From: an uncultured Campylobacterales bacterium
Lineage (GTDB): Bacteria > Campylobacterota > Campylobacteria > Campylobacterales > Arcobacteraceae
DNA: 64,000 bases
Assembly: GCA_947494995.1 (NCBI GenBank)
Contig: CANLWY010000003.1
Coordinates: forward strand, 186,001 to 250,000
Direction: 5' to 3'
Part shown: positions 22,712 through 38,528 of the stretch, in pieces
Numbering within the stretch: the first letter of the stretch is position 1
Layout of the letters: the number at the start of each line of letters is the position of its first letter
The notes under the pieces: model-generated
What the model saw: only the letters and a program-made list of their open reading frames with translations
The model's database searches: none
Told to the model about the DNA's origin: nothing
Program-made: the position numbers and the translations under genes

Positions 22712-23302
22712 ATGTCTGCAAAAGAAGAAAAGAAAAATACGATAATAGAAAATTCACTGAAACTTTTTTCAAAAAATGGTTTTTATAATACAACTATCCC
22801 TGATATTGCAAAATCGATGAAGATGAGTGTTGGTAATATGTATAACTATTTTAAATCAAAAGAAGAACTAGCAAAATATGCTATAAAATACTCAACAAAT
22901 GTTTTAGCTGTAGAGTTAAGAGAAATAAATCAAATGGAAATTTCATCAAAAGAGAAAATATTTGTTTTTACCAGAAAATATATGGAAAGTGTAAAGAAGT
23001 CTCCTGAAGTTATTGAATATTTTTTAAGAGTTTATTTGTCAAATAGAGAAGTTTTTCAAGAAGGTTGTGAAGGTTTCTTATGTGTAAGTGAATTTGTAAC
23101 TGAAGTAATGATTTTACTTGATGATGGTGCATCAAAAAAAGAGTTTAGACAACAAGATTTTTTCCCAGCCTTTGCTATGTTTATGGGGGCTTTAGGAGGT
23201 TTTGCTTTCTTAAGTGGAGAAAAAGTTCTTGAAAAAGATATTTTAGAGTATAGTGATGATGTTGCTGATAACATTTATAGAGCTTTAAAGTATGATGGGT
23301 AA
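22712..23302 (+). CDS. TetR/AcrR-family transcriptional regulator
   Basis: A 196-residue regulator with an N-terminal helix-turn-helix of the TetR family (TIPDIAKSMKMSVGNMYNYF, about residues 28-47) and a C-terminal ligand domain rich in Phe and Gly (FAMFMGALGGFAFL). It is the first gene of the hydrogenase supercluster and overlaps the small-subunit gene by 11 bases, so the two are translationally coupled. A palindrome covers its own promoter, implying autoregulation. The likely targets are the hydrogenase operons, since similar palindromes precede hydA1 and hydA2; effector unknown. Confidence 0.85.
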   Translation: MSAKEEKKNTIIENSLKLFSKNGFYNTTIPDIAKSMKMSVGNMYNYFKSKEELAKYAIKYSTNVLAVELREINQMEISSKEKIFVFTRKYMESVKKSPEVIEYFLRVYLSNREVFQEGCEGFLCVSEFVTEVMILLDDGASKKEFRQQDFFPAFAMFMGALGGFAFLSGEKVLEKDILEYSDDVADNIYRALKYDG

Positions 23303-24188
23303 TAAAAAACCAACAATAGTTTGGTTTCAAGCTATTACTTGTAACGGGAATACTCATTCCCTTTTAAGTGCAAATGATAATAGAATGAAGCTATTTTTAA
23401 ATAGCTTCGATTTAATATATCATCCCTCTTTAACTACTGATATCACTTTAGAAGAGATACTAAAAACAAATAAAAAAATAGATTTTTTACTAGTTGAAGG
23501 TGCAATCACTTCAAATGAAAGGTTTTATTCACTTTCTAATCAATCTATTCATAAACTATTTAATAAATTAGTAAAAAAAACAAATTATTTAATTGCTGTT
23601 GGTTCTTGTGCTTCATATGGAGGACTTCATGCTAGGTTTGAACAGAATGAGGATATTAGAGGTATTCAAGATTCATTAGATAGTGAGAATTTATACATTT
23701 TAAAACATCCTATTGTAAATCTTACTGGTTGTCCAGTACATCCTGAGTGGATTTTTCAAACTCTTTTTTCTTTAAAAGAGTATGGAAAAATGCAATTAGA
23801 TGATGAGGGACGACCAAAAGAGTTATATTATGATTTAGCACATCATGGATGTACTAGAAATGAGTATTTTGAATGGAAAGTTGAAGCTCATAGTTTTGGA
23901 GAAAAAGAAGGATGTCTATTTTATTCTCAAGGCTGTAGAGGTCCTATGACTCATTCTAGTTGTAATAGAATACTTTGGAATGAAGTAAATACAAAAACAA
24001 GAGTAGGCATGCCTTGTATTGGATGTACAGAGTTTGATTTTCCAAGGGATAATATGTTTGAAACTAAGAAAAATATAGGTATTCCTGATGAAGTTCCTTT
24101 AGCCGTTCCTAAAAGAGCATATCTCTCTTTAACTGGAATTGCGAAAACTTTTAAAATAGATAGATTAAATAAAAAACTAATTGACTGA
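23292..24188 (+). CDS. Cytoplasmic [NiFe]-hydrogenase small subunit, sensor-like (HupU/HoxB or group 2 type)
   Basis: A 298-residue small subunit without Tat signal or membrane anchor. Cluster ligands are visible: GSCASYGG and GCPVHP (proximal), HGCTRNEYF with GCLFYSQGCRGP (distal), SSCNRILWN and CIGCTEFDF (medial). The first proximal motif, normally CxxC, is CNGN: Cys17 is kept but Asn20 replaces the second Cys, and the following Glu is replaced (TH instead of SE). The protein pairs with the large subunit at 24888-26243. With TetR in the same operon and no export signal, an H2-sensing or soluble group-2 role is inferred rather than periplasmic respiration. ATG 23295 is an equally possible start. 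Confidence 0.85.
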   Translation: MMGNKKPTIVWFQAITCNGNTHSLLSANDNRMKLFLNSFDLIYHPSLTTDITLEEILKTNKKIDFLLVEGAITSNERFYSLSNQSIHKLFNKLVKKTNYLIAVGSCASYGGLHARFEQNEDIRGIQDSLDSENLYILKHPIVNLTGCPVHPEWIFQTLFSLKEYGKMQLDDEGRPKELYYDLAHHGCTRNEYFEWKVEAHSFGEKEGCLFYSQGCRGPMTHSSCNRILWNEVNTKTRVGMPCIGCTEFDFPRDNMFETKKNIGIPDEVPLAVPKRAYLSLTGIAKTFKIDRLNKKLID

Positions 24189-24812
24189 TTCTTTAGACTT
24201 CAAATATATTTCTGTCCATTTATAGTTACTTAAATATTGTATATCTGTTTTTTCATATGCGCTATTTTTTAAATCAATTGTTTCAAGTGTATAAAGTGTT
24301 AAGAAATCATTTCTTACAGTTAAGGGTAAAATTCTCTTATTTATACTATCAAGAATAAATACATCAGAAAAAGAGTCTTCTTGATAAGCTAATACTAAAT
24401 GGTAAATATTATTATGAATTCCATGTAGAATAGATAGTTTTGATTCTTCAATACCAAGTTCTAAAAGAGTAAAAAATTTAGCAATTACAAAATCTTCACA
24501 ATCCCCAGCACCTTTAAATATAAACTCTTTTCTAGTTGCCCAGTAATCAGCCTTGTTATATATTTTTTTATCATCTACATATTCATATTCATTAAAAAAA
24601 TCATTTACAGAGTTTAGTTTTGTAAAATCATCATCTACATTTTTTAAAGATTTTTTTAAAAGCATTAGTTCATTTATTCTATCAAATACAAAGTTTTTTT
24701 GAGAAGAGTGGGATATTTTTATAAAGTCTTCATCTGTGATTTTTAGGTCATTTAAAGTTGATGCATAAATTAGATTACTTAAAAGAAAGCTTGCAAATAG
24801 TATTTTTTTCAT
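24177..24812 (-). CDS. Bacterial transglutaminase-like cysteine protease (LapG-like)
   Basis: A 211-residue secreted protein with signal peptide MKKILFASFLLSNLIYA and the BTLCP/LapG fold: catalytic Cys in FKGAGDCEDFVIAKF, His in YHLVLAYQ and Asp in VFILDSINKRI. LapG relatives are periplasmic proteases that cut adhesins under c-di-GMP control; no LapD or adhesin gene is nearby. It is oriented against the hydrogenase genes, sits between the two subunit genes of the sensor-like hydrogenase, and its 3' end overlaps the small-subunit gene by 12 bases. Confidence 0.82.
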   Translation of the reverse strand: MKKILFASFLLSNLIYASTLNDLKITDEDFIKISHSSQKNFVFDRINELMLLKKSLKNVDDDFTKLNSVNDFFNEYEYVDDKKIYNKADYWATRKEFIFKGAGDCEDFVIAKFFTLLELGIEESKLSILHGIHNNIYHLVLAYQEDSFSDVFILDSINKRILPLTVRNDFLTLYTLETIDLKNSAYEKTDIQYLSNYKWTEIYLKSKESVN

Positions 24813-24887
24813 TCTTAAATTATAATAGAAAATATTGATAACAATCTTAAAGGATTTATGATAGAATCTCTGCCATGAGAGGTAAAT

Positions 24888-26243
24888 ATGAAAACAGTTG
24901 ATTTGGTTGAGAGAATAGAAGGGGAAGCAAAACTTGTTTGCTCTTGGAAAGATAAAATAATAGATGATGCAAGAATTGAATTTTTAAATTTTAGAGGTTT
25001 TGAGTATATGTTAGAGGGAAAATCTGCTTTAGATACTTTAGTTTATACACCGAGAATTTGTGGAATTTGTGGTCAAGCTCATCTTAAAGCAACTGTTGAT
25101 GCCTTAGAGAATATATATAAGAATATTGGTGAAGAGTTAGAAGTTACTAATAAGGCTAAACTTTTAAGAGAAATAGGCTTAAATATTGAGATAATTGACT
25201 CTCATATAAAATGGTTTTATATGTTTATAATGCCAGATATTGTTAAACTATCAAGTGATGATCTTCAAGAGTATGCACCTTTAAAAGGTAAAAATTGGTT
25301 AAGAGCGTCAAGTGTAGCTAGTGAAACTATTAAATCTCTTGCCATAATTGGTGGTCAATGGCCACATACTTCCTATATGCTTCCCGGAGGAGTTGTAAGT
25401 GACCCAACTCTACTTGATTTAGCTTCAATGCAAAACTACTTAGATACTGCAATTGATTTTTTTGAAAATGATTTTGCAGGGATAGATTTTGAAAACTATT
25501 TATCTTTTTCTTCTGTTGATGATTTAGAGAAAGTAGGTTCAAATTTAAAGGATTTTATAGAACTCTCTTTTGAACATAAACTAGAAGATATTGGAAAAGG
25601 TCATAACCAACATATTGTTTTAGGGGAATCAACTCTTTTTAAGTCTGGAAAAAGTAAAAAAAGATTAACCCATAAACTTGATTTTGAAAGAATTTGTGAA
25701 AATACAGAATATACTTATAATATAGATAAGCAAAAAGATACAAAAGATGCTTTCGGTTGGGCAAAAACTGTTTCTTATGCAGATAACTTTTATGAAGTAG
25801 GTCCTCTTTCAAGAGCGATTATCTCAAATAGGAAATTTGTAAGAGATATACATAAAAAGTATGATGATTCTGTTTTTACAAGAGTTATTGCTAGAATGGA
25901 TGAATTAGCATATCTTTTATATGAGACAAAAGACTTAATAAAAGATATAGATATAGGAGAAGACTCTTTTATCAAACCTAAAATAGCTTTATCTGAAATC
26001 AAAGATGCCCAAGGAACAGCTGTTGTTGAAGCTTGTCGAGGTTCTTTATATCATAAGCTTTCACTAAAAGATGGGAAAATCAATTCTTATAATATAATTA
26101 CTCCTACAGTTTGGAATTTAGGTCCAGGAAATAAATTAAATCCATCAATAGCGCAAAAAGCAATTATTGGAACTTCTTCAATAGAAAAAGCAAAAATAGT
26201 TCTTAGAAGTTTTGATGTTTGTTCTGTCTGTACAACCCATTAA
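24888..26243 (+). CDS. Cytoplasmic [NiFe]-hydrogenase large subunit, no maturation peptide (HupV/HoxC-like)
   Basis: A 451-residue catalytic subunit. The N-terminal nickel motif is RICGICGQAH (Cys58, Cys61). The C-terminal motif is DVCSVCTTH (Cys445, Cys448), and the protein stops at that His451. Ordinary large subunits continue for 15-30 residues that a protease removes after Ni insertion; here none exists, as in regulatory hydrogenases (HoxC/HupV). The usual Pro after Asp in DPCxxC is Val. GAGAGG precedes ATG 24888. It is separated from its small-subunit gene by an opposing protease gene, so it needs its own promoter; TAGAAT with TGA before it (24859-24867) is a candidate -10. Confidence 0.88.
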   Translation: MKTVDLVERIEGEAKLVCSWKDKIIDDARIEFLNFRGFEYMLEGKSALDTLVYTPRICGICGQAHLKATVDALENIYKNIGEELEVTNKAKLLREIGLNIEIIDSHIKWFYMFIMPDIVKLSSDDLQEYAPLKGKNWLRASSVASETIKSLAIIGGQWPHTSYMLPGGVVSDPTLLDLASMQNYLDTAIDFFENDFAGIDFENYLSFSSVDDLEKVGSNLKDFIELSFEHKLEDIGKGHNQHIVLGESTLFKSGKSKKRLTHKLDFERICENTEYTYNIDKQKDTKDAFGWAKTVSYADNFYEVGPLSRAIISNRKFVRDIHKKYDDSVFTRVIARMDELAYLLYETKDLIKDIDIGEDSFIKPKIALSEIKDAQGTAVVEACRGSLYHKLSLKDGKINSYNIITPTVWNLGPGNKLNPSIAQKAIIGTSSIEKAKIVLRSFDVCSVCTTH

Positions 26244-26476: not shown

Positions 26477-26494
26477 TAAATGAATGTTCATTTA
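26477..26494. promoter_or_regulatory. Candidate TetR operator upstream of hydA1
   Basis: TAAATGAA-TG-TTCATTTA is an 18-base palindrome with perfect eight-base arms, ending 25 bases before the hydA1 ATG. It shares ATGAA and TTCATTTA with the site over the TetR promoter. The remaining gap (26320-26476) shows no gene; I see no convincing -35/-10 pair there. Confidence 0.6.
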
Positions 26495-26518
26495 ATAAAA
26501 ATAGGGAAGGAGATATGC

Positions 26519-27760
26519 ATGGTTGATTCTCAAGATATGGTAAAAAAGTTTTTTACTCAAAATTCTGCAAGAGTTGATACAAATAAAGGTGATGCTTACT
26601 ATAACAATCTTTTTGAAAAGTCAAAAGAGAGGTTAGCTGCATTAAGAAAACAACCCGCACTAAAAGATATTGATTTGATGGCGGTAGTTGAAAGTGAAGG
26701 TGTAAATAGAAGAGATTTCATGAAGTGGGCTAGTGCTACAACTGCAACACTTATGTTACCTCCTATTTTTACTCCTCTTGTTGCAGAGGCAACAGAGCTT
26801 ATGAATAGAGTTCCTGTAATTTGGATTGAGTTACAAGATTGTGCAGGTAACTCTGAAGCTTTACTTAGATCTTCAACACCAACAGTTGATGATTTACTTT
26901 TTGATGTTTTAAGTTTAGAGTTCCATCATACTTTACAAGCAGCTTCTGGTCATCAGGCTGAAGAACAACTTGAAGATGCAATACATCACTTTAAAAATAA
27001 GTACTTACTATTTGTAGAAGGTGCAATACCAACTGGTATGAATGGTGGATATGGAACAATTGGTGCAAGTGGAGAGACTTTTCAAGAAAACTTAGAAAGA
27101 CTTTCTAAAGATGCAGCTGCAGTTGTAGCTGTTGGAACATGTGCTACATTTGGTGGTATTCCTGCTGCTGCTCCAAATCCAACAGGTGCAGTTGGTGTTA
27201 TGGATTTAGTAAAAGGTAAGCCAATTGTTAATATTCCTGCCTGTCCAGCAAATCCAGCAAATATGGTTGGTGTAGTTTTACACTATGTTTTAACAGGACA
27301 GATTCCTGAGCTAGATTCTTTATTAAGACCAAAGTTTGCATTTGGTTATAGAATTCATGATAACTGTGAAAGAAGAGCTCACTTTGATGCAGGTGAGTTT
27401 GTAGAAGAGTGGGGTGATGTTGGAGCAGAAAATAACTTTTGTCTATATAAGGTAGGATGTAAAGGTCCTATGACATTTAATAACTGTTCAATTGTAAGAT
27501 ATAACGATGGAGCAAACTGGCCTATTGGTGTTGGTCGTGGTTGTATTGGATGTTCAGAGCCAGATTTTTGGGATAAATATGCTTATGAAAGACCAATGGC
27601 GGATGCAAATATCAAAGCTCCAACTGGTGGAGTTGAAAAAACAGTTGATGAGTTTGGACTTGGATTATTAACTGCAACAGCAATTGGTATTGGTGTACAT
27701 GCAGTTGCAAGTGCGGCAGTAGGAAAAAGAACAGTACATAAAGAGGATGGAGAAGAGTAA
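26519..27760 (+). CDS. hydA: Membrane-bound [NiFe]-hydrogenase small subunit 1, with Asn in the proximal cluster motif
   Basis: A 413-residue group-1 hydrogenase small subunit: Tat signal NRRDFMKW (Arg64-Arg65) followed by a hydrophobic stretch, cluster-binding core, and a C-terminal membrane anchor (LGLLTATAIGIGVHAV). Distal and medial ligands are intact (IHDNCERR, KVGCKGPMTFNNC, GCIGCSEPDFWD), as are GTCATFGG and PACPANP. The first proximal motif reads DCAGNSE: Cys108 is present but Asn111 (codon at 26849) replaces the second Cys, unlike HydA2 (ECTGCSE). GGAAGGAG sits six bases before ATG 26519; the frame is open from 26480 but that ATG lies inside the palindrome. Its stop overlaps the hydB1 start (TAATG). 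Confidence 0.9.
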   Translation: MVDSQDMVKKFFTQNSARVDTNKGDAYYNNLFEKSKERLAALRKQPALKDIDLMAVVESEGVNRRDFMKWASATTATLMLPPIFTPLVAEATELMNRVPVIWIELQDCAGNSEALLRSSTPTVDDLLFDVLSLEFHHTLQAASGHQAEEQLEDAIHHFKNKYLLFVEGAIPTGMNGGYGTIGASGETFQENLERLSKDAAAVVAVGTCATFGGIPAAAPNPTGAVGVMDLVKGKPIVNIPACPANPANMVGVVLHYVLTGQIPELDSLLRPKFAFGYRIHDNCERRAHFDAGEFVEEWGDVGAENNFCLYKVGCKGPMTFNNCSIVRYNDGANWPIGVGRGCIGCSEPDFWDKYAYERPMADANIKAPTGGVEKTVDEFGLGLLTATAIGIGVHAVASAAVGKRTVHKEDGEE

Positions 27761-29496
27761 TGAGTAAACATGTAGTAATAGATCCAATCACAAGAATTGA
27801 AGGACATCTTAGAATTGAAGCAGTAATTGATGATAATAATGTTATTCAAGAAGCTTACAGTTCTTCAACAATGTTTAGAGGTATTGAAGAGATTTTAAAA
27901 GGTAGAGACCCTAGAGACTGTGGTCTTTTAGCTATGAGAATTTGTGGTGTTTGTACTGGTACTCATTATCAAAGGTCAATTGAGGCTGTTGAACATGCAT
28001 TTAATGTGACAATTCCAAAAAATGCAAGACTAGTTAGAAATTTAATGCAAGGTGCTTTATATCTACATGACCACATTGTACATTTTTATCATCTTCATGC
28101 GCTTGACTTTGTTGATATTACAAAGGCACTAGAAGCTGATCCAAAAAAGACTGTTGAAGAAGCACAAAAATGGGCAAGAGTTCATGGACAAAGAGCATGG
28201 AAAGCTAGTGAAGATGAATTTGCAGCAGTACAAGAGAGAGTTACAAAATATGTAAAACAAGGAAGACTTGGTATTTTTGGAAATGCTTACTGGGGAAGTA
28301 AAGCATATAAATTAACTCCTGAGCAAAATTTAATAGGTCTTCATCACTATTTAGAAGCATTAGAATTACAAAGAAAAGTTGCTAAAGCACAAGCGATCTT
28401 TGGTGGTAAAAATCCTCATCCTCAATCAATTGTTGTTGGCGGTGTAACATGTGTTCAAGATTTAAAAAATCCAGCAAGAATTGCTGAGTTTAAAGATATC
28501 ATCGAAATGGCTGAAAAGTTTACAAAACAAGCTTATCTTCCTGATATTTATATGGCAGGAACAATGTATTCTGATGAAGCTTTAGCTGGAATTGGTGGAG
28601 GTTTAGGAAACTTCATGTCTTATGGTGATTTTAATCTTGATGATTTACCATTTTATGATTCTGCAAAACTTTTCCCAAGTGGAGTTGTATTAAATAAAGA
28701 TATTACAAAAGTGTTTGACCTAGACCAATCTAAAATTACTGAAGATGTAACTCATGCTTGGTATGATGGTAATACAAATCTTCACCCATATGATGGTGTA
28801 ACGCATCCAAACTATACTGGGTTTGCTAAAAAAGAAGATAATATCGCTTATCTTGATACAAAGAAAAAATACTCTTGGATTAAATCTCCTTTATATGATG
28901 ATGAGAGAATGGAAGTTGGTCCATTAGCTAGAATGGTAATAGGTGTAGCAAAAGGTGATAAAAGAATTACTAAATATGTAACTGAGTTTTTAAAGAAAGG
29001 TAATTTACCAATTGAAGTATTGTTCTCAACTGTAGGTAGAACAGCAGCTCGTGCGATTGAAACAGAATTAATGTGTGAAGTAATCATTGAGTGGTGTGAC
29101 GAGTTAGCATCAAATGTTGCCCATGGAGATTTATCGACTTGGACAGAGTTTGATTTTGATAAAGTTTCAAAAGATGCTAAAGGTTATGGTATGGCTGAAG
29201 CTCCAAGAGGTAGTTTAGGTCACTGGGTTAAGATTAAAGATGGAAAAGTGGAAAACTATCAAGCCGTTGTTCCATCAACTTGGAATGCAGCTCCAAAAGA
29301 CTACAAAGAGAGAATGGGAGCTTATGAGGCTTCTTTAGTTGGAACACCTGTAGTTGATCCTGACCAACCATTAGAGATTATTAGAACAGTACATAGTTTT
29401 GACCCTTGTATTGCCTGTGCAGTTCATATTATAGATACAAGAGGTAAAGAACTGGCAGTTTATAAAGTAGACCCAGTAGGAGGAAGCCGTGCCTAA
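27760..29496 (+). CDS. hydB: Membrane-bound [NiFe]-hydrogenase large subunit 1
   Basis: A 578-residue catalytic subunit of a Wolinella/Helicobacter-type (group 1b-like) uptake hydrogenase. Nickel ligands are RICGVCTGTH (Cys62, Cys65) and DPCIACAVH (Cys550, Cys553, His556). A 22-residue tail (IIDTRGKEL...SRA) after His556 is the peptide removed by the maturation protease, presumably HydD1. It has no signal of its own and is co-exported with Tat-dependent HydA1. Translation is coupled to hydA1 by an ATGA/TAATG-type overlap. The active site shows no unusual residue, so the Asn change in HydA1 is the only visible departure. Confidence 0.94.
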   Translation: MSKHVVIDPITRIEGHLRIEAVIDDNNVIQEAYSSSTMFRGIEEILKGRDPRDCGLLAMRICGVCTGTHYQRSIEAVEHAFNVTIPKNARLVRNLMQGALYLHDHIVHFYHLHALDFVDITKALEADPKKTVEEAQKWARVHGQRAWKASEDEFAAVQERVTKYVKQGRLGIFGNAYWGSKAYKLTPEQNLIGLHHYLEALELQRKVAKAQAIFGGKNPHPQSIVVGGVTCVQDLKNPARIAEFKDIIEMAEKFTKQAYLPDIYMAGTMYSDEALAGIGGGLGNFMSYGDFNLDDLPFYDSAKLFPSGVVLNKDITKVFDLDQSKITEDVTHAWYDGNTNLHPYDGVTHPNYTGFAKKEDNIAYLDTKKKYSWIKSPLYDDERMEVGPLARMVIGVAKGDKRITKYVTEFLKKGNLPIEVLFSTVGRTAARAIETELMCEVIIEWCDELASNVAHGDLSTWTEFDFDKVSKDAKGYGMAEAPRGSLGHWVKIKDGKVENYQAVVPSTWNAAPKDYKERMGAYEASLVGTPVVDPDQPLEIIRTVHSFDPCIACAVHIIDTRGKELAVYKVDPVGGSRA

Positions 29497-30223
29497 AATG
29501 AAGCGGGTTGAGAGAATGACTCCAATCATGCGAACCATTCACTGGACGAATGCGATTTGTATGATTGTAGCAGTTGCAACCGGGCTATATATAGGACATC
29601 CATATTATCAAACATTTATTGCAGATCCTGCAGTAGATAAGTATGTGATGGCATGGAATAGATGGGGACATTTTATTGCTGCAATAATTTTTGATGTATC
29701 AGCAATTTTAATTGGTTATTTATATCTATTTTCTAGATTTGAAAAACCATATAAGAAAATATTGCCAACAAAGAAAAATTTTATTGAGTTTTGTGAAGTA
29801 TTTTTTAATTTGATTACTTTTAATAGAAGAAAGAAATTTGATAGTGAACACTCTGATTCTTATAACATCATGTTCTTTACATTATTTCATGTTCTATTAG
29901 TGTTTATGTTATTAACAGGCCTTCAACTTTATGTACATGGTTTAGCATCTGGTACTAGTTCAATTGGTGATTGGTGGCCTTGGATGTTACATTTAATGAC
30001 TGATTGGACTTTAGATGTATTTGGTGGAAATATGGGAGTTAGAATTGCTCACCATACAGCAATGTATTTACTTCTTATGTGGGTTATGTGTCATATTTAT
30101 TATCAAATATGGAGAACTGTCTTCTGGAGAGAGGGAGACATTAATATTGTATTTGGTGGAACTAAATTTGTTAATAAAGAGATTGTTGAATCAAAAGGTG
30201 AAGTGGAAAAGAACGAAAAATAG
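29489..30223 (+). CDS. hydC: Hydrogenase cytochrome b subunit 1
   Basis: A 244-residue di-haem b protein with four main membrane helices, anchoring the hydrogenase and passing electrons to menaquinone. Candidate haem-ligand histidines are in TIHWTNA (helix 1), HFIAAIIF (helix 2), FHVLLVFMLLTG (helix 3) and AHHTAMYLLLMW plus CHIYYQIW (helix 4). GTG 29489 fits AGGAGG at 29478-29483 and overlaps hydB1 by eight bases; ATG 29498 would be too far from that site. The gene ends this operon segment: a strong terminator follows, so hydD1-hydE1 may depend on read-through or their own promoter. Confidence 0.9.
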   Translation: MPKMKRVERMTPIMRTIHWTNAICMIVAVATGLYIGHPYYQTFIADPAVDKYVMAWNRWGHFIAAIIFDVSAILIGYLYLFSRFEKPYKKILPTKKNFIEFCEVFFNLITFNRRKKFDSEHSDSYNIMFFTLFHVLLVFMLLTGLQLYVHGLASGTSSIGDWWPWMLHLMTDWTLDVFGGNMGVRIAHHTAMYLLLMWVMCHIYYQIWRTVFWREGDINIVFGGTKFVNKEIVESKGEVEKNEK

Positions 30224-30346: not shown

Positions 30347-30922
30347 ATGAAAAATATTGTTGTTGGTGTTGGAAATCTTCTTTTTAAAGATGAGAGTGTA
30401 GGTATTTTGGCATCAAAATATATGGAAGCAAACTATGAGTTTGAAGGTGATTTAGAGATTATTGAAGGTGGAACATTAGGTTTCAAACTAATGACATATT
30501 TTCAAGAGTATGATAATGTGATTATAATGGATACGGTTTCAATAGAGGATGAAGTAGGAAGTTTATATAGACTTCCCTCAGATGTTCTTTTAGGTATGGG
30601 ACAATATAGGAAAACAGCCCATGAAGTTGAAATAGTTGAGATGTTAGAGATAGTATCTGTTTTAGACTCTCATGCAAATGTTGTAATTATTGGTATTGTT
30701 CCAGAAGATATTGTATCTGTAGAAATTGGACTTACACAAACTATTGAAGATAAATTTGAAGATTTTATTACACAAGGGATTAAAGAGATTGTATCAATTG
30801 GTGTAAAGGCAAAAAGAGTTGATAATAAAAGTGTAAAACAGGTTGCACAAGAACTTATTGGAAGTTATAACGGTGAGCATTTAAGCAGAATCCCAAATGA
30901 GGAAGATACGACATGGAATTAA
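30347..30922 (+). CDS. hydD: Hydrogenase maturation endopeptidase 1
   Basis: A 191-residue HybD/HyaD-family protease that removes the C-terminal peptide of a hydrogenase large subunit once Ni is inserted. The nickel-recognition residues match HybD: Glu16 in GNLLFKDESVG, Asp62 in IIMDTVS and His92 in TAHEVEI. Position after hydABC1 suggests HydB1 is its substrate. The C-terminal 25 residues (about 165-191) are polar and extend past the typical fold. It overlaps hydE1 by ten bases. A long AT-rich leader (30279-30346) could contain a promoter, but none is clear. Confidence 0.9.
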   Translation: MKNIVVGVGNLLFKDESVGILASKYMEANYEFEGDLEIIEGGTLGFKLMTYFQEYDNVIIMDTVSIEDEVGSLYRLPSDVLLGMGQYRKTAHEVEIVEMLEIVSVLDSHANVVIIGIVPEDIVSVEIGLTQTIEDKFEDFITQGIKEIVSIGVKAKRVDNKSVKQVAQELIGSYNGEHLSRIPNEEDTTWN

Positions 30923-32448
30923 TATATAAAATAGATTTTAATAGTACGAACTTTTATTTTAAACATATAATTGATGATTTAATTGAAGAGTCACAAGTGA
31001 AAGCAAATACAGCAATGTATAAAGGGTTTATATTAATCATCTGTAATGATGAACAAGAAAAATTAGAAGAGTTTTTTACTCTTTTAGAACAAAACCTTCC
31101 TTTATCTATTTTTTTGTCAGGTGCAAAAGTTATTGAGAACTTTGATTTTGATGCTTATGAAGAGATTGAAGATAAAGATGTAAAAATAAACTTATCTTTA
31201 CTTACAAATAAAGAGATTAGAAAAATATTAAAAGAGAATAATATAGATTTTTCAAATGATTTAAATAAGATAAAAGAGGGAGGAATCTCTCGATTTGAAA
31301 CTCATAATGGTTTAAAAGATTTCTTTTTACCGAATAAAAAGTTAAGAGAAGAGTTTGAATTTAAAGGACATGAAGTAAAACTTTTAATTACAAATATAAA
31401 TGTTATTTCAGATTTAGTTGAAATTTCACAAAAAGATTTGCAACTTCTTTGTTCAATAGAAAGACCTCTTGTAAAATTAAGATTTAAATTGCTTCAAAAT
31501 GTAAATAATGAGTTTTCAAATACAAAATTTATTTATGCAAAGATTGCAGACGATAAAGAGACCGTTCTTTTCGCAAATGCGCTAAAAGATGAAGGTATTA
31601 ATTATCTTCTTTATGTTAATGATGAAGTTTATCAAGATGGTTTAAAAGTTACATATAATAATAATCAAAATATTGTAGTTCATGGAGAAAAAGGTTTATT
31701 TCCTAAATATGATTATACCTTAGATAGAAAAGTAAATTCTAGTGCAGATTATTTTGAAGAGTATGGTTCTGTGTTTAAATCTGTAATTGCACAATATAAT
31801 AAAAGACTTGTTCCTACTATAGGAGTATATTTCTCTTATGAAAGTGATGAATCTTCTATAAAAGTAAATCTTCCTACTGTTGGAGAAAAAGAGATTATTC
31901 ATATACCAAATGTAATTAATAGTATTGATAATTGTTTAGAAGACATAAAATCAATTGATGAAAATACTCAAAGGTTAATTGATAATTATAAAACAAAATT
32001 CCCAGAATATTTTAAGAAAGAGTTTCATGACAAAGATGCGGATGGCTTTGAATCAATTCTAAATCTTTTGGCATATGTCTTAGGAATGAAGGATCATAAA
32101 GAGTTTGAAGATATTGCACTTTTATCAAATGCAAAGAGTGGACTTCAAATTGATATGAATGTTGTAAAAATTGATAATAAAAATTATTTAGATTATAGAA
32201 GAATAATTCAAAGTTCTATGAGTTACAAGATGGCAGGCGTTGAAGATACTATGATTGCATACTCTTTTTATGAGAGTTTAGTTGACTTTATTTCTAATAG
32301 GGTTAATGATATAAATAAAGAGTTAAAATCTTTTGACCTAATACTATGTGGGAATATGTTTTCTAACTCAATTATGCTTCAAAAAGTAACAAAAGAACTA
32401 AAAAATTTAAATATTTTAATACCTAAAGAATATCCTCTGGATTATTAA
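30913..32448 (+). CDS. hydE: HydE hydrogenase accessory protein 1 (HypF-related, no zinc finger)
   Basis: A 511-residue accessory protein of the Wolinella/Helicobacter HydE type, required for active hydrogenase in those bacteria. Its C-terminal part resembles the Kae1-like carbamoyl-transferase end of HypF: SGLQIDM matches GLQIEM of HypF (42.4 kb), and ILCGNMFSNSIMLQKVTKEL matches the HypF ILTGGVFQNKTLLELTLKKL. Metal-binding His residues of the HypF domain are not evident, so it is probably a non-enzymatic relative. Unlike HydE2, it has no CxxC zinc-finger pair. It overlaps hydD1. Role in the cytoplasm, perhaps holding the small subunit or HypF product, is inferred. Confidence 0.82.
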   Translation: MELIYKIDFNSTNFYFKHIIDDLIEESQVKANTAMYKGFILIICNDEQEKLEEFFTLLEQNLPLSIFLSGAKVIENFDFDAYEEIEDKDVKINLSLLTNKEIRKILKENNIDFSNDLNKIKEGGISRFETHNGLKDFFLPNKKLREEFEFKGHEVKLLITNINVISDLVEISQKDLQLLCSIERPLVKLRFKLLQNVNNEFSNTKFIYAKIADDKETVLFANALKDEGINYLLYVNDEVYQDGLKVTYNNNQNIVVHGEKGLFPKYDYTLDRKVNSSADYFEEYGSVFKSVIAQYNKRLVPTIGVYFSYESDESSIKVNLPTVGEKEIIHIPNVINSIDNCLEDIKSIDENTQRLIDNYKTKFPEYFKKEFHDKDADGFESILNLLAYVLGMKDHKEFEDIALLSNAKSGLQIDMNVVKIDNKNYLDYRRIIQSSMSYKMAGVEDTMIAYSFYESLVDFISNRVNDINKELKSFDLILCGNMFSNSIMLQKVTKELKNLNILIPKEYPLDY

Positions 32449-32727: not shown

Positions 32728-32782
32728 TATATGTAGTTTTATATAAATGGGTACATATTCTATAATTAAGAAAGGAAATAGT

Positions 32783-33946
32783 GTGAAAGATTTAAGTTTA
32801 TTTGAACGGCTCTCTCAAAGATTAGAAAAGCTTGAAAAACTTCCAAGGATGGATGAGAAAAAATCTATCCCGTCGCTTTTAGAAGAGAAAGGTGTAAGTA
32901 GAAGAGATTTTATGAAGTGGGCGACTGCTGTAACTGCAATGTTAGCATTACCAGGTAACTTTACTCCATTAGTTGCGAAAGCAGCAGAATTAAGTGACAG
33001 GTTACCAATTATTTGGTTACATATGGCAGAGTGTACAGGATGTTCTGAATCATTATTAAGAACTGATGCTCCTACAATTGATTCTTTAATTTTTGATTAT
33101 ATCTCTTTAGAGTATCATGAAACTTTAATGGCAGCAGCAGGTTGGCAAGCAGAGAATAATCTTGAGCATGCTATTGAAAAGTATAAAGGTAACTATATAT
33201 TAATGGTTGAGGGTGGTATTCCTCAAGGTGAAAATAGTTTCTACCTTACAATTGGTGGACATGGACATACAGGTGAACACAGTGCTAAGTTAGCATCTGA
33301 GCATGCAAAAGCAATTTTTGCTATTGGTACCTGTTCTTCTTTTGGTGGAGTACAAGCTGCAATGCCAAACCCAACAGGAGCTGTGGCATTAAGTAAAGTA
33401 ACTGATAAACCAGTTATCAATGTACCAGGTTGTCCTCCAAGTGAAAAGAATATTGTTGGTACTTTATTACATTATATTCTTTATGGAACTCTTCCATCTC
33501 TTGATGCATACAATAGACCAAAATGGGCATATGGACTTAGAATTCACGATTTATGTGAAAGAAGAGGTAGATTTGATGCTGGTGAGTTCGTAGAAGAGTT
33601 TGGTGATGAAGGTGCAAAAAAAGGTTACTGTTTATATAAAGTAGGTTGTAAAGGACCATATACTTTTAGTAACTGTTCTAAAAATAAATTTAATCAACAT
33701 ATGTCTTGGCCAATTCAGGCAGGTCATGGTTGTATTGGTTGTACTGAACCAGATTTCTGGGATACTATGGGACCATTTGAAGAACCTGTTGCTGATAGAT
33801 TATATAATACTGTATTTGGTGGCTTAGGTGCAGATGCAACAGCAGATAGAGTTGGTGTAGGATTATTAGCTGTTACAGGTATCGGTATAGCAGCACACGC
33901 AGCAATTTCAAAATTTAAAAACCCAAAAGAAGACGAGGAGCACTAA
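32783..33946 (+). CDS. hydA: Membrane-bound [NiFe]-hydrogenase small subunit 2 (canonical ligands)
   Basis: A 387-residue Tat-exported small subunit (SRRDFMKW, Arg40-Arg41) with an N-terminal pre-Tat extension and a C-terminal anchor (VGLLAVTGIGIAAHAAI). The proximal motif is the standard ECTGCSES (Cys84, Cys87), with GTCSSFGG and PGCPPSE; distal and medial ligands are intact (IHDLCERR, KVGCKGPYTFSNC, GCIGCTEPDFWD). The two extra cysteines of O2-tolerant six-Cys enzymes are absent (Gly and Ser at those places), so a standard O2-sensitive enzyme is predicted. AAAGGAA at 32771-32777 selects GTG 32783; ATG 32747 has no ribosome site. Confidence 0.9.
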   Translation: MKDLSLFERLSQRLEKLEKLPRMDEKKSIPSLLEEKGVSRRDFMKWATAVTAMLALPGNFTPLVAKAAELSDRLPIIWLHMAECTGCSESLLRTDAPTIDSLIFDYISLEYHETLMAAAGWQAENNLEHAIEKYKGNYILMVEGGIPQGENSFYLTIGGHGHTGEHSAKLASEHAKAIFAIGTCSSFGGVQAAMPNPTGAVALSKVTDKPVINVPGCPPSEKNIVGTLLHYILYGTLPSLDAYNRPKWAYGLRIHDLCERRGRFDAGEFVEEFGDEGAKKGYCLYKVGCKGPYTFSNCSKNKFNQHMSWPIQAGHGCIGCTEPDFWDTMGPFEEPVADRLYNTVFGGLGADATADRVGVGLLAVTGIGIAAHAAISKFKNPKEDEEH

Positions 33947-33947
33947 A

Positions 33948-35678
33948 ATGGCAAATAAAAGAGTAATCGTAGACCCAATTACTAGAATTGAAGGACACTT
34001 AAGAATTGAGGTTGAGGTTGATGAAAACAACGTAATTCAAAATGCCTTCTCTTCATCTACACTTTGGAGAGGATTAGAGACTATTGTTAAAAATAGAGAT
34101 CCTAGAGATGCAGGTTTTTTAATGCAAAGAATTTGTGGTGTTTGTACTTATTCACACTATAGAGCAGGAATTGAAGCTGTTGAAGATGCTCTTGGTATTG
34201 TTCCTCCTTTAAATGCAAAGTTAACAAGAGGATTAATGAATCAAGCTTTATTTATGCATGATCATCCTGTTCACTTTTATCATTTACATGGATTAGATTG
34301 GTGTGATATTACTGCTGCATTAAAAGCAGATCCAGCACTAGCAGCAAAAGAAGCTTTCAAGTATGCTAAGTATCCAGTAGCTGCAGGTGAAGCAGATTTA
34401 CTTAAAGTTAAAGATAAGTTAAAAGCTTTTGTTGATAAGGGACAATTAGGACCTTTTGCAAATGCTTATTGGGGACATTCTACATTTAGACTAACTCCTG
34501 AGCAGAATCTTATTGTTGCTTCTCACTACTTAAAAGCATTAGAAGTACAAAGAACAGCTGCACAACTTATGGCAATGTTTGGTGGTAAACAACCACACCC
34601 TCAAAGTTTAACTGTTGGTGGTGTAACTTGTGTTATGGATCTTTTAGATCCTTCAAGAATGGGTGAGTATTTAGTTAAGTATAAAGAAGTTGCAGATTTC
34701 ATTGAAAATGCATATATTGCAGATATTAAAATGGCTGGTGGAGCATATATTCATGAACCAAGCGTTACTGCACAAGCTGGAACAATGAACTTTATGGCAC
34801 ATCAAGATATGCCATTAAATAGAACTGAGTACCTTTTTGATTCAGGGATTATTTTAAATGGTGACCTTACAAAAGTTCATGAAATTAATGAAGACTTAAT
34901 TACTGAAGAAGCAACTCACTCTTGGTATAAAGATGATGAGCCTTTACATCCATATGATGGTAAAACAAATCCTAACTATACAGGAATGACTGATATGATG
35001 ACTGTTGGTCCTGATGGAAATGATATTAAATCAAAAGTTATTGATACAAAAGGTAAATACTCTTGGATTAAGTCACCAAGATATGATGGTAAAGCAATGG
35101 AGGTTGGACCTCTTGCAGCTGTATTAGTATCATATGCTAAAGGTAACAAGAGAATTGTTAAGATTGTTGATGAGTTCTTAGCTGAAACTGGTTTACCTGT
35201 AGGGGCATTATTTACAACTTTAGGAAGAACTGCTGCAAGAGCACTTCAAACTAAAGCTATTATAGATAATGGACTAGAAGCATTTAATACATTAATTGAG
35301 AATTTAAAAGTAGATCAAGATACTTGTGCTCCTTATAAAATTGATAAAAATAAAGAGTATAAAGGAAGATTTATTGGTGATGTTCCAAGAGGTATGTTAT
35401 CTCACTGGGTTAGAATTAAAAATGGTGTTATTGAGAATTATCAAGCTGTAGTTCCTTCAACATGGAATGCTGGTCCAGAAGATGCAAAAGGATTAAAAGG
35501 TCCATATGAATCAAATTTAGTTGGTATGAAAGTTCAAGATATTTCTCAACCACTTGAAATTATTAGAGTTATTCACTCATTTGACCCTTGTATTGCTTGT
35601 GCAGTTCATGTTATGGATACTAAAGGGAATGATTTAGGTACGTATAAAGTAGATCCTATTTATGGAAGCAGCTGTTAG
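33948..35678 (+). CDS. hydB: Membrane-bound [NiFe]-hydrogenase large subunit 2
   Basis: A 576-residue catalytic subunit paralogous to HydB1. Nickel ligands: RICGVCTYSH (Cys63, Cys66) and DPCIACAVH (Cys548, Cys551, His554), with a 22-residue C-terminal maturation peptide ending SSC. The ligand-carrying regions are nearly the same as in HydB1, while the middle (residues about 330-470) differs and carries an insertion (TDMMTVGPDGND). It starts two bases after hydA2 and forms a periplasmic H2-oxidising pair with it. Confidence 0.94.
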   Translation: MANKRVIVDPITRIEGHLRIEVEVDENNVIQNAFSSSTLWRGLETIVKNRDPRDAGFLMQRICGVCTYSHYRAGIEAVEDALGIVPPLNAKLTRGLMNQALFMHDHPVHFYHLHGLDWCDITAALKADPALAAKEAFKYAKYPVAAGEADLLKVKDKLKAFVDKGQLGPFANAYWGHSTFRLTPEQNLIVASHYLKALEVQRTAAQLMAMFGGKQPHPQSLTVGGVTCVMDLLDPSRMGEYLVKYKEVADFIENAYIADIKMAGGAYIHEPSVTAQAGTMNFMAHQDMPLNRTEYLFDSGIILNGDLTKVHEINEDLITEEATHSWYKDDEPLHPYDGKTNPNYTGMTDMMTVGPDGNDIKSKVIDTKGKYSWIKSPRYDGKAMEVGPLAAVLVSYAKGNKRIVKIVDEFLAETGLPVGALFTTLGRTAARALQTKAIIDNGLEAFNTLIENLKVDQDTCAPYKIDKNKEYKGRFIGDVPRGMLSHWVRIKNGVIENYQAVVPSTWNAGPEDAKGLKGPYESNLVGMKVQDISQPLEIIRVIHSFDPCIACAVHVMDTKGNDLGTYKVDPIYGSSC

Positions 35679-35687
35679 GAGCATATT

Positions 35688-36368
35688 ATGATTAAAAAAC
35701 ATTATGAGTTTTCTGTTTGGCTTAGAATTACTCACTGGGTAAGAGCTTTAGCAATTGTTATATTAACCGCAACAGGGTTTTATATTGCATTTCCATTTAT
35801 AGCTCCTGCTCATAGTGGTGGTGAGCCAGTTAATTTTCTAAACGCATTGTTTAGATCATGGCACATTATTTTTGGATTTTTACTAATTGCTGTAACAATA
35901 GGAAAAGCTTATTTGTTTATCTTTGATAAACAAAGTAAATTAGAAAGAAACTCTTTTTGGGATTTTATTAATCCAAAAATATGGATTCAACAAATAGGGT
36001 ATTATCTATTAATTAGTAAACACCCTCATGGAAAAGGTGTATATAATCCACTGCAATTTGTTGCATACTTAGGTGTATATATTTCTATTTTTATGATTTC
36101 ATTAACTGGATTAATCCTTTATATTCATGTATATCATGAAGGATTGGGTGGTCTTTTATTTGATATTTTAAGACCAATTGAAGTTATGTTAGGTGGACTT
36201 GCTTGGGTTAGAGAATTACACCATATTTTTATGTGGGTATTCATTATTTTCTTACCAGTTCATATCTATCTTGCAGTATTCAACTCTGTATATGGAAAAA
36301 GTGGAGCAATGGATTCTATTATTTCTGGATATAGATGGATTAAAAAAAGTAAAAAGAATAAAGATTAA
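35688..36368 (+). CDS. hydC: Hydrogenase cytochrome b subunit 2
   Basis: A 226-residue di-haem cytochrome b with four main membrane helices. Candidate haem ligands: ITHWVRAL (helix 1), WHIIFGFLLI (helix 2), YIHVYHEG after helix 3, and LHHIFMW with PVHIYLAV in helix 4. It is the menaquinone-reactive anchor of hydrogenase 2 and is clearly diverged from HydC1. AGGAG is seen just before ATG 35688. Its stop overlaps the hydD2 start (TAATG), so unlike set 1 no terminator separates structural from maturation genes. Confidence 0.9.
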   Translation: MIKKHYEFSVWLRITHWVRALAIVILTATGFYIAFPFIAPAHSGGEPVNFLNALFRSWHIIFGFLLIAVTIGKAYLFIFDKQSKLERNSFWDFINPKIWIQQIGYYLLISKHPHGKGVYNPLQFVAYLGVYISIFMISLTGLILYIHVYHEGLGGLLFDILRPIEVMLGGLAWVRELHHIFMWVFIIFLPVHIYLAVFNSVYGKSGAMDSIISGYRWIKKSKKNKD

Positions 36369-36931
36369 TGAATATTTTAATATTAGGAATAGGAAATATC
36401 CTATTCCAAGATGAAGGAATTGGAGCTCATTTTATTCATTATATGGATGAAAAATATGAGTTTAATTCAAAAGAACATACTATTAGTATTGTAGATGGTG
36501 GAACTTTAGCCCAAAGGCTAATTCCACTTATCGTTAAATATGATAAAGTTTTTGTTATAGATTGTATAGATGCTCTTAACTCTAAACCTGGTGATGTTTA
36601 TTTCTTTGATTACTTAAATGCACCAGCTGAAGTTGACTGGCAAGGAAGCGCCCATGAGGTTGAAATGCTTCAAACTCTTAATATGATTAAGATGAATGGA
36701 GATCTACCAAGTACAGATGTTTTAGGAATTATTCCTAAAAGAGTAGCTGATGATACTACTTTTGAATTAAGTAGTGAAATAATAAAGGCTATACCTACAA
36801 TGGAACATACATTATTAAATGCAATTAAAGATTTAGGTGTAGAAGTAGAAATAAAAAATGCAGAAATGACCATTGAAAAGATGGCACAAATATCATTTAA
36901 AAGGGATATTATAAATGGTCCTAGAGTATAA
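36368..36931 (+). CDS. hydD: Hydrogenase maturation endopeptidase 2
   Basis: A 187-residue HybD/HyaD-family protease with Glu16 in GNILFQDEGIG, an Asp in FVIDCIDAL and a His in SAHEVEM, the three nickel-sensing ligands of the family. HydB2 is its presumed substrate. Translation is coupled both to hydC2 (one-base overlap) and to hydE2 (17-base overlap). Confidence 0.91.
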   Translation: MNILILGIGNILFQDEGIGAHFIHYMDEKYEFNSKEHTISIVDGGTLAQRLIPLIVKYDKVFVIDCIDALNSKPGDVYFFDYLNAPAEVDWQGSAHEVEMLQTLNMIKMNGDLPSTDVLGIIPKRVADDTTFELSSEIIKAIPTMEHTLLNAIKDLGVEVEIKNAEMTIEKMAQISFKRDIINGPRV

Positions 36932-38528
36932 ATTTGACTATAGTTCAAGTAATAGTAAGTTTGAAACTATTATAGATAATATTTTAAAAGAAAAAAATAT
37001 TGTTTATAAAATAAATAGAGAAGAGAATTATATCTTCTTATATATTGAAGATGAAGACGATAGACTTATAAAAGTATCAAATGAGTTATCTCAAGAGATT
37101 CCTATGTCTATCTTTTTGAAAGATTTCACAGTAGAAGTTGTACCACAGATTCCTGAAATAGACTATCAGTTTGCTCCTAATAGTTTAAAGAAATCATATT
37201 GTACAAAATGTTTAACCCTTATAGAAGAGGAAGGATCGAGTCACCTTTATGATCCTTTTTTAAATTGTAGTATATGTGGTACAACTTGTAGTGTCAACAA
37301 TCTTGAAGTTTTTGATGGAAAAGAACTTTTAGAATACAAAAACTATGAAGAACTTTTTAAAGTTCTAGCTTCAAAAATTGCGCAAAATAAAAAAATTAGA
37401 ATAAATGATTATGTTTTTTCAAAGCTTGATAAAATAAAAAAAGAGAATGAAAAAATACTTTGTACAAATTTAGAAAAACTTTCAACTTTAGTTGTTGGTT
37501 CAAAACAGAAGTCAGCTTTTTTATTAAGTCTAGAAAAACCATCATTAGATTTTAATGTAAATACAATATATCAATCACAAAATAACTGTAGTGTTAATAA
37601 AATAAATGTTAGTTCAGCATGGAACAGTTTTTTATATCTTTTATCAAAAGAGTTACAAAAGCTTGAAATAGATTTTCTAGTTTATGAAAAGTCTGATAGT
37701 TTTGATCTTGAATTAGATTTCGAAGAAGAAACACAAAGTGTAAAAATATCTTTGACTGAAAATAAGATTTTCTTATTAGAAAATGGGGATTACGATAAGA
37801 GACTTGATGATGTATATAATAAGTTTGATGAAAAGTCTAAATCACAATTTTTAGTTTTAGTAGATGAAAATGAATTATATGAAGAATCAATTTTAAATAT
37901 TTTTATTTCATCAAAATATGATGATACAATTACTTTATACTCTCCAAAACTAGATGGAATGTTAGATGTTTTAACATTTAAACTTCCAGAAAGTGTAAAT
38001 ACAATTTTCGATGAAATTATGCAATCAGATAGTGGAAAAAGACTTATAGAAAACTATAAAGAGAAGTTCCCTGAAGATTTTGAAAAAGCAATTAACTTTG
38101 ATATGTCAACATTAAAAGCAAACTCTATTGATTCTTTATGGAAAATTGCTTCAGCAGTTTTAGGAATAGATAATATTTTTGAAAAAGCAAGTGGTGCATT
38201 ACTTCAAAAAGGTCCTAGAATAGATTATAAACTAGAAGAGAATGAAAAAATCTTCAATAAAGAGTTTCTTCTTACAAAATTTATTAGAAGTGGAATTAGT
38301 TTTAAATTAGCTGGTGTTGATGAAAAAACTTTATCTTTAGGTTATGTAGAGAGTCTTATATATTTCCTGAGTGATTTATGTGATGAAGTTAATGAATCTT
38401 TTTCATTAGATGGAATTTCATTTAGTGGTGATTTAATTGCAGATGAATTTTTTAATAAACAAGTGACAAAAACTTTTAATAAAAATTTAAAACAATACTA
38501 TAATAAAGATTTTCCTATTCAAAAATAA
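36915..38528 (+). CDS. hydE: HydE hydrogenase accessory protein 2 (HypF-related, with zinc finger)
   Basis: A 537-residue HydE paralogue. Residues about 90-125 hold a CxxC...CxxC pair (YCTKC and NCSICGTTC) resembling one HypF zinc finger, which HydE1 lacks. The C-terminus again looks like a degenerate HypF Kae1-like domain (GPRIDYKL, then ISFSGDLIADEFFNKQV). The middle part (about 160-360) is poorly conserved with HydE1. It overlaps hydD2 by 17 bases, so is made in step with it. A chaperone- or HypF-assisting role in hydrogenase assembly is inferred. Confidence 0.82.
   Translation: MVLEYKFDYSSSNSKFETIIDNILKEKNIVYKINREENYIFLYIEDEDDRLIKVSNELSQEIPMSIFLKDFTVEVVPQIPEIDYQFAPNSLKKSYCTKCLTLIEEEGSSHLYDPFLNCSICGTTCSVNNLEVFDGKELLEYKNYEELFKVLASKIAQNKKIRINDYVFSKLDKIKKENEKILCTNLEKLSTLVVGSKQKSAFLLSLEKPSLDFNVNTIYQSQNNCSVNKINVSSAWNSFLYLLSKELQKLEIDFLVYEKSDSFDLELDFEEETQSVKISLTENKIFLLENGDYDKRLDDVYNKFDEKSKSQFLVLVDENELYEESILNIFISSKYDDTITLYSPKLDGMLDVLTFKLPESVNTIFDEIMQSDSGKRLIENYKEKFPEDFEKAINFDMSTLKANSIDSLWKIASAVLGIDNIFEKASGALLQKGPRIDYKLEENEKIFNKEFLLTKFIRSGISFKLAGVDEKTLSLGYVESLIYFLSDLCDEVNESFSLDGISFSGDLIADEFFNKQVTKTFNKNLKQYYNKDFPIQK

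Follow-up and report, generated by a model that had tools for sequence, protein, structure and literature searches.

The window, the whole stretch of 64,000 nucleotides analysed here (contig CANLWY010000003.1 of assembly GCA_947494995.1, positions 186,001 to 250,000), comes from an uncultured bacterium of the Arcobacteraceae (Campylobacterales). It carries two successive sets of [NiFe] hydrogenase genes, HydA1 to HydD1 and HydA2 to HydD2, downstream of a regulatory-type pair (Table 1).

Table 1. Hydrogenase genes and features of the window, in window coordinates.
Feature	Coordinates	Strand	Basis
Regulatory-type (group-2-like) small subunit, proximal motif CNGN	23292..24188	+	sequence; no Tat signal found with Pfam
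Regulatory-type large subunit, Pro before R-I-C-G-I-C	24888..26243	+	translation, family matches
HydA1, small subunit of Asn-type membrane-bound [NiFe] hydrogenase	26480..27760	+	ORF, translation, 426 aa
Proximal-cluster motif DCAGNSE	26837..26857	+	sequence and alignment to PDB chains
HydB1, large subunit, Ni-Fe ligand motifs intact	27760..29496	+	sequence, family matches
HydC1, probable b-type cytochrome subunit	29489..30223	+	TIGR02125, 94 bits, below cut-off 121.5
HydD1, probable maturation endopeptidase	30347..30922	+	operon position
ORF, probable accessory protein	30913..32448	+	weak HypF_C_2 (Kae1-like) match, Pfam PF22521, 33.1 bits, cut-off 27
HydA2, Cys-type (CTGC) paralogous small subunit	32747..33946	+	ORF, motif, family match
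HydB2, large subunit, Gln before R-I-C-G-V-C	33948..35678	+	ORF, family match, alignment
HydC2, probable b-type cytochrome of HydA2B2 enzyme	35688..36368	+	ORF and operon position only
HydD2, probable maturation endopeptidase	36368..36931	+	ORF and operon position only

HydA1 belongs to the small-subunit family by its score of 446 bits against NCBIfam TIGR00391 (hydA; cut-off 179.5). Its proximal-cluster motif reads Asp120-Cys121-Ala122-Gly123-Asn124-Ser125-Glu126, with the AAC codon of Asn124 at 26849-26851. In the alignments shown to solved hydrogenases, which have no gap at this place, Asn124 is matched with the second Cys of C-x-G-C, a ligand of the proximal cluster, and HydA1 thus departs from the standard form with four proximal Cys residues. 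HydA2 has E-C-T-G-C at the aligned place. The preliminary description had set DCAGNSE of HydA1 against ECTGCSE of HydA2, and both the sequence and the gap-free PDB alignments bear out this contrast and the position assigned to it. The other scored ligand columns of HydA1 are occupied (Cys121, 221, 255; His293, Cys296, 321, 327; Cys336, 355, 358); the assignment of each column to a given cluster is presumed from the usual pattern of the family.

A Tat-like R-R-D-F-M-K is situated at residues 77-82 of HydA1 (Pfam TAT_signal, 22.2 bits, just short of the cut-off of 22.7), and a C-terminal hydrophobic stretch, read from the translation, is a probable anchor. HydB1 carries RICGVC and DPCIACA, and Met59 (codon 27934-27936) immediately precedes R-I-C-G-V-C, where HydB2 has Gln. 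The earlier judgement that the gene looks functional is upheld by the occupied ligands, the Tat-like motif and the two HydB1 motifs. HydC1 is presumably the electron exit to quinone. HydD1 is a probable endopeptidase by its operon position and by comparison with Sulfurovum mangrovi, in which the gene following the cytochrome b gene is annotated as a HyaD/HybD endopeptidase. The AlphaFold model of the HydA1 core has a mean pLDDT of 65, falling below 50 in the C-terminal cluster domain, and is too weak for any geometry to be taken from it; the 50 Foldseek matches listed for this model are hydrogenases.

Other genes of the neighborhood complete the picture. A 537-aa ORF at 36915-38528, with no Pfam match, follows the HydA2 set, whereas the matching place after the HydA1 set is occupied by the ORF with a weak HypF_C_2 match only. 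The regulatory-type large subunit stops at the second metal-ligand motif, with no extension beyond it at the C-terminus, and a 211-aa ORF lies on the opposite strand between the two regulatory-type genes (23292-26243). The regulatory-type small subunit has Asn (C-N-G-N) at the proximal place, aligned with the Asn of the solved Huc enzyme, so the residue is not peculiar to the HydA1 gene as the preliminary description had implied. Among 59 homologues of this subunit, Asn is found in all 57 that are readable, the two others being truncated rows without a residue at the position. A fourth small-subunit-like gene in the genome of the window (G000:C1:962887-963669, L003) is 35% identical to HydA1 and has Cys (CSGC). 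A similar three-hydrogenase cluster, consisting of hupSL, hydABCDF and hyaABCD, has been described in Arcobacter butzleri (PMC2147049).

To follow position 124, HydA1-type sequences were defined as ORFs of 402 aa or longer scoring at least 660 bits with HydA1, from loci collected by family, phylum and named-genome searches. Asn is present in 139 of 139 distinct sequences (that of the window and 138 others), as D-C-A-G-N-S in 114 and D-C-A-G-N-T in 25, and nine other scored ligands (CCHCCCCCC) are kept in all 139. Beneath the unchanged residue the codon turns over, with 92 AAC and 47 AAT. Rows scoring 400-660 bits with HydA1 (n = 26) comprise 22 with Cys, three with Asn and one with Glu. When all rows of at least 400 bits are sorted by the better score, those closer to HydA1 have Asn in 142 cases and Glu in one (n = 143), and those closer to HydA2 have Cys in 22 of 22.

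An even draw of 397 Campylobacterota genomes yielded 96 HydA1-like places (at least 62% identity); the 91 genomes that carry them fall under six family codes (f1 34, f8 27, f5 14, f9 11, f12 4, f10 1). The CAGNxE pattern occurs in 95 of the 96, and the sole exception, with Glu, comes second in a tandem pair of small subunits in genome G069. Such a tandem is seen at L064:3965-6445, where a CAGN and then a CAGE (Glu) subunit precede one large subunit; the CAGE subunit is apparently without a C-terminal anchor. In 43 of the 91 genomes HydA1 is the only small subunit among the matches listed at E <= 1e-60 (at most four candidates scored per genome), and it is therefore likely to be the working uptake enzyme there. 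Named carriers include Arcobacter, Aliarcobacter, Poseidonibacter, Sulfurimonas indica, Sulfuricurvum, Sulfurovum, Nitratifractor and Sulfurovum mangrovi. Conservation of CxGN, which had been proposed as a check, is thus found in Arcobacter-like genomes and beyond them, and a change singular to one strain is ruled out by the Asn across HydA1-type sequences and genomes. A 3252-base contig labelled Thiotrichales (L060) has a HydA1-type gene 77% identical to that of the window; it is possibly a mis-binned Campylobacterota contig.

The pattern itself was cross-checked with 111 CAGNxE places entered and 33 left out (families f3, f4 and f5, many reading CAGNGE); the latter cannot change the count of 95 of 96, because it asks only whether each hydrogenase place holds a match. 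Sixteen entered places lay outside the listed hydrogenase places. Of the 12 inspected, two were hydrogenases (L171, a 57%-identical Asn homologue, and L237, a HydA1-type fragment), nine were ORFs of 180-200 aa that form a single different family, and L239 was a further protein. None of five inspected places among the 33 was a hydrogenase.

The surroundings of the substituted ligand have also changed. Besides position 124, 20 positions are fixed differently in the HydA1 and HydA2 types (95% in 139, 90% in 22 sequences). Nine of these are at most four residues from a proximal ligand, a zone of 29 out of 265 positions (hypergeometric p = 4.8e-5; p = 0.0011 when the background is restricted to positions equally conserved in both types), although these p-values are only a guide since related sequences are non-independent. 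Of the remaining differences, three fall in the 48 positions no more than four residues from one of the seven other ligands and eight fall in the other 188; this count supersedes a contrast with four other-cluster ligands only (one in 30 positions).

The large subunits differ likewise, with 18 positions fixed differently between HydB1 and HydB2. The residue before R-I-C-G-V-C is Met in 133 of 133 deduplicated HydB1 sequences and Gln in 16 of 16 HydB2 sequences. When small and large subunits are paired, C-A-G-N occurs with Met in 169 of 169 pairs (where one gene may be counted twice if two loci cut it differently; deduplicated, 133) and C-A-G-E with Met in the single case. C-T-G-C occurs with Gln in 22 of 23 pairs and Gly once, C-T-C-C with Glu in two of three and Gly once, C-D-G-D with Ser in both, fusion forms with Gly twice and Gln once (L201), and group-2 forms with Pro in 52 of 52, including 49 of 49 CNGN pairs. 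Residue 73 of E. coli Hyd-1 is described as lying between the active site and the proximal cluster; it is Gln in enzymes sensitive to O2 and Glu in most that tolerate it, and its replacement affects catalytic bias (PMC5040170, Chem. Commun.). By our own mapping this residue corresponds to the one before R-I-C-G-V-C, which is consistent with the Glu in the Hyd-1 row (L219). The pairing suggests, but does not show, that Asn124 and the large-subunit Met are coupled: each changes once in the branch, so that the coupling rests on one evolutionary event, and with 18 large-subunit positions differing in the same manner the difference at the Met place could be due to chance.

In a tree of 73 small-subunit rows that includes position 124, the HydA1 branch and a fusion form group with support of 98/89; of these 21 rows, 20 have Asn and one has Glu. 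The 18 rows of the sister branch, that of HydA2, all have Cys, and the two branches join at 96/82. The other group-1 rows nearest to them have Cys. A second tree was built with position 124 masked and with the long-branch rows L222 and L003, both kept in the first, left out. It requires three state changes, and the fitting reading is a single origin each for the Asn of group 1, the Asn of group 2 and the Glu. In both trees, which are unrooted and for which the tool gave a warning that long branches of groups 1 and 2 may be drawn together, HydA1 is placed with group-1 rows and not with the group-2-like sequences. Huc is also the lowest of the 43 PDB matches of HydA1. Asn arose once within the sampled group-1 enzymes, and by parsimony Cys would be the older state within group 1.

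The fusion form (L226:1008-3425; also L227 and L200-L203) is found in some genomes of the family to which the window belongs; none was among the matches in the genome of the window itself. In this form an FAD/NAD(P) oxidoreductase and a BFD-like [2Fe-2S] domain precede a HydA-like small subunit (CSGN or CTGN) in one polypeptide, of 806 aa in L226, the locus in which the domains were examined, and no Tat signal was found. Its own large subunit follows, in L226 together with a membrane-protein ORF resembling a putative proton-pump subunit. The fusion form is likely to be a cytoplasmic, pyridine-nucleotide-linked relative. Because fusion L201 keeps Gln and Thr122, it suggests that the Asn state came before the other pocket changes.

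We favor, with moderate confidence, the reading that HydA1B1C1 is a working respiratory H2-uptake hydrogenase with a 3Cys:Asn124 proximal cluster, poised for H2 oxidation beside the Cys-type HydA2. The fixation of Asn throughout one group-1 branch in Campylobacterota, in an altered pocket and with a fixed large-subunit Met, is an observation; the functional steps are conditional. The enzyme would be membrane-bound, face the periplasm and oxidize H2. The chances seem slightly better than even that the side chain of Asn124 serves as a weak ligand to a [4Fe-4S] cluster; somewhat less probably, it leaves a [3Fe-4S] cluster instead. Either form would be expected to raise the potential or to alter electron release. 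Electrons would then leave the tuned proximal cluster for the medial and distal ones and reach quinone by way of cytochrome b, and the enzyme may be biased to feeding electrons from H2 to quinones when the potential is moderate to high (O2, nitrate). HydA2 may cover low-potential, more reversible work. Nostoc HupS and Huc, both described below, serve as natural precedents for the Asn; an engineered C81N variant of A. macleodii HynS is reported to be functional (PMC4070099), and the membrane fraction of Sulfurimonas denitrificans, whose small-subunit sequence is outside this comparison, is reported to take up H2 by a periplasmic hydrogenase (PMC4149538). A changed redox bias of the HydA1 enzyme is plausible; its direction is uncertain, since a change of the Nostoc proximal [4Fe-4S] to [3Fe-4S] is reported to give more, not less, H2 production in cells (PMC5040170).

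Other explanations of the Asn must be weighed against this reading. A sequencing error at 26849-26851, raised in the preliminary description, or a decaying gene has a practically negligible probability: Asn recurs in 138 further distinct homologues with codon turnover, and the operon and ligands are intact, by which error and pseudogene are ruled out. Neutral drift, in which the enzyme could do without the fourth Cys and the tolerated Asn would have no effect on function, would be in line with the C81N and C81D variants of A. macleodii HynS, both reported to keep measurable activity (PMC4070099). Drift should however leave mixed residues, and the Asn in 139 of 139 sequences, with its changing codon and co-fixed pocket residues, makes it very improbable. 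The fourth iron might also be bound by another residue or by solvent (for example, large-subunit Met59, Asp120 or water), with Asn124 merely packing beside it. Met59 (133/133) and Asp120 (139/139) are indeed as invariant in the clade as Asn124. However, position 120 is Glu in Cys-type rows, so that an acid there is not new, and L201 has Asn with Gln at the Met59 place, so that Met is not needed for the Asn state; we consider such a ligand doubtful.

Adaptation to O2, in which an Asn-held cluster would allow work in, or recovery from, O2 in the way proposed for the cluster with an Asp ligand in the group 1h enzyme, has ecological points in its favor and is nevertheless unlikely. Sulfurimonas pluma, described from plumes saturated with O2, has a group 1b enzyme as its sole hydrogenase, and none of its catabolic genes is more highly expressed (PMC10066037); Thiomicrolovo, with two group I enzymes, is reported to grow on H2 at 40% O2 (PMC12943458); and the named HydA1 carriers are Arcobacter, Sulfurimonas, Sulfurovum and their kin. 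The small-subunit sequences of S. pluma and Thiomicrolovo are, however, outside this comparison, HydA1 is without the CTCC form of group-1d-like rows, and group 1b itself is called oxygen-sensitive (PMC10066037). The Asn-bearing, group-1b-related enzyme of Methylacidimicrobium is described as losing activity, in preliminary tests, once dissolved O2 exceeded 0.01% (PMC5364354), and Nostoc HupSL is called O2-sensitive (PMC6616624). With these two Asn enzymes reported as O2-sensitive, the different O2 response anticipated in the preliminary description finds no support.

The respiratory-uptake reading can be taken further. The Asn-type may be a distinct kind of group-1 enzyme whose Ni-Fe site and proximal cluster meet at an interface rebuilt from both subunits, with Asn124 on one side and Met59 on the other, where the other sampled kinds have Gln, Glu, Gly, Ser or Pro. 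Taken furthest, the idea is that the thioether of the Met, or an open iron beside it, would give the cluster a ligation so far without precedent among hydrogenases (3Cys:Asn plus a trans-subunit contact to Met). This proposal is speculative and we think it rather improbable; if true, it would be a third way of tuning the first electron step, beside [4Fe-3S] and 3Cys:Asp.

Asn at the proximal cluster is already in print for groups 1f and 2a (PMC5364354, 2016), so that the substitution as such is not new, and what had been presented as a singular change is instead an old, clade-wide state with these printed parallels. What is new is the clade-wide Asn/Cys split inside 1b-like Campylobacterota enzymes, with a co-fixed pocket and a co-fixed large-subunit Met. 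In the open-licence literature, where group 1b is mentioned in passing (PMC5364354), no printed account of Asn in Campylobacterota HydA, of the split or of the co-fixed pocket was found, and none of the Met was met in searches not aimed at it. Group 1b is treated as one oxygen-sensitive class when Campylobacterota hydrogen use is interpreted (e.g., PMC10066037). Since the Asn and Cys branches have different proximal-cluster surroundings, it may be better to keep the two apart when potential, bias and O2 response are predicted from genomes. HydA1B1 and HydA2B2, side by side in one cell, are a natural pair for probing the role of the proximal ligand.

Among known enzymes, the group 2a HupSL of Nostoc punctiforme likewise has Asn at the second proximal position (PMC4070099), and its HupS is described as holding the proximal [4Fe-4S] on Asn and three Cys (PMC6616624, citing Raleiras 2016). 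It differs in being a group 2 enzyme on the cytoplasmic side with no signal peptide (PMC6616624); Nostoc HupSL itself is outside the trees, where group-2-like rows lie apart from HydA1. Huc of Mycobacterium smegmatis (7utd, 7uur) shares the Asn at the aligned place (CSGN) and is likewise described as an uptake enzyme with a raised onset potential, but differs in having three [3Fe-4S] clusters (PMC10017518), in being oligomeric and in oxidizing atmospheric H2. The rows sharing its motif CSGNTMSFL (L221, L225) have Pro before R-x-C-G-I-C, in contrast to Met in HydB1.

In group 1f and in HupS of Methylacidimicrobium, Asn (Asp in some 1f enzymes) is reported in place of one proximal Cys; the latter is called closely related to 1b and highly O2-sensitive, and the passage leaves unstated which of the four Cys is replaced (PMC5364354). 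These enzymes belong to other phyla and are compared here by description only. The group 1h/5 enzyme of Ralstonia eutropha (5aa5) likewise has a non-Cys fourth proximal ligand, Asp (PMC5364354). It differs from HydA1 in this Asp, in its O2 insensitivity and in its distance (126 bits against 296 for the best match); CDGD is seen in rows L222 and L223, and Asp at position 124 in 0 of 139 HydA1-type sequences. The six-Cys form of group 1d (CTCC, [4Fe-3S] cluster) is present in L215, L216, L217 and L219, and HydA1 has CAGN there.

The closest likeness in gene content is to group 1b, the HydDB class of the Wolinella/Helicobacter type, with a probably Tat-exported small subunit, a large subunit, a probable cytochrome b and a probable endopeptidase in Campylobacterota (the Tat and cytochrome b scores of the HydA1 set are both below cut-off). 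Groups 1b, f and g are described as enzymes with only three Cys for the proximal cluster (PMC5364354), and HydB of S. pluma is assigned to group 1b (PMC10066037). Unlike enzymes of this three-Cys description, the branch containing HydA2, the sister of HydA1, has Cys (22/22). With Cys in the one branch and Asn in the other, group 1b as now named may hold two kinds of enzyme.
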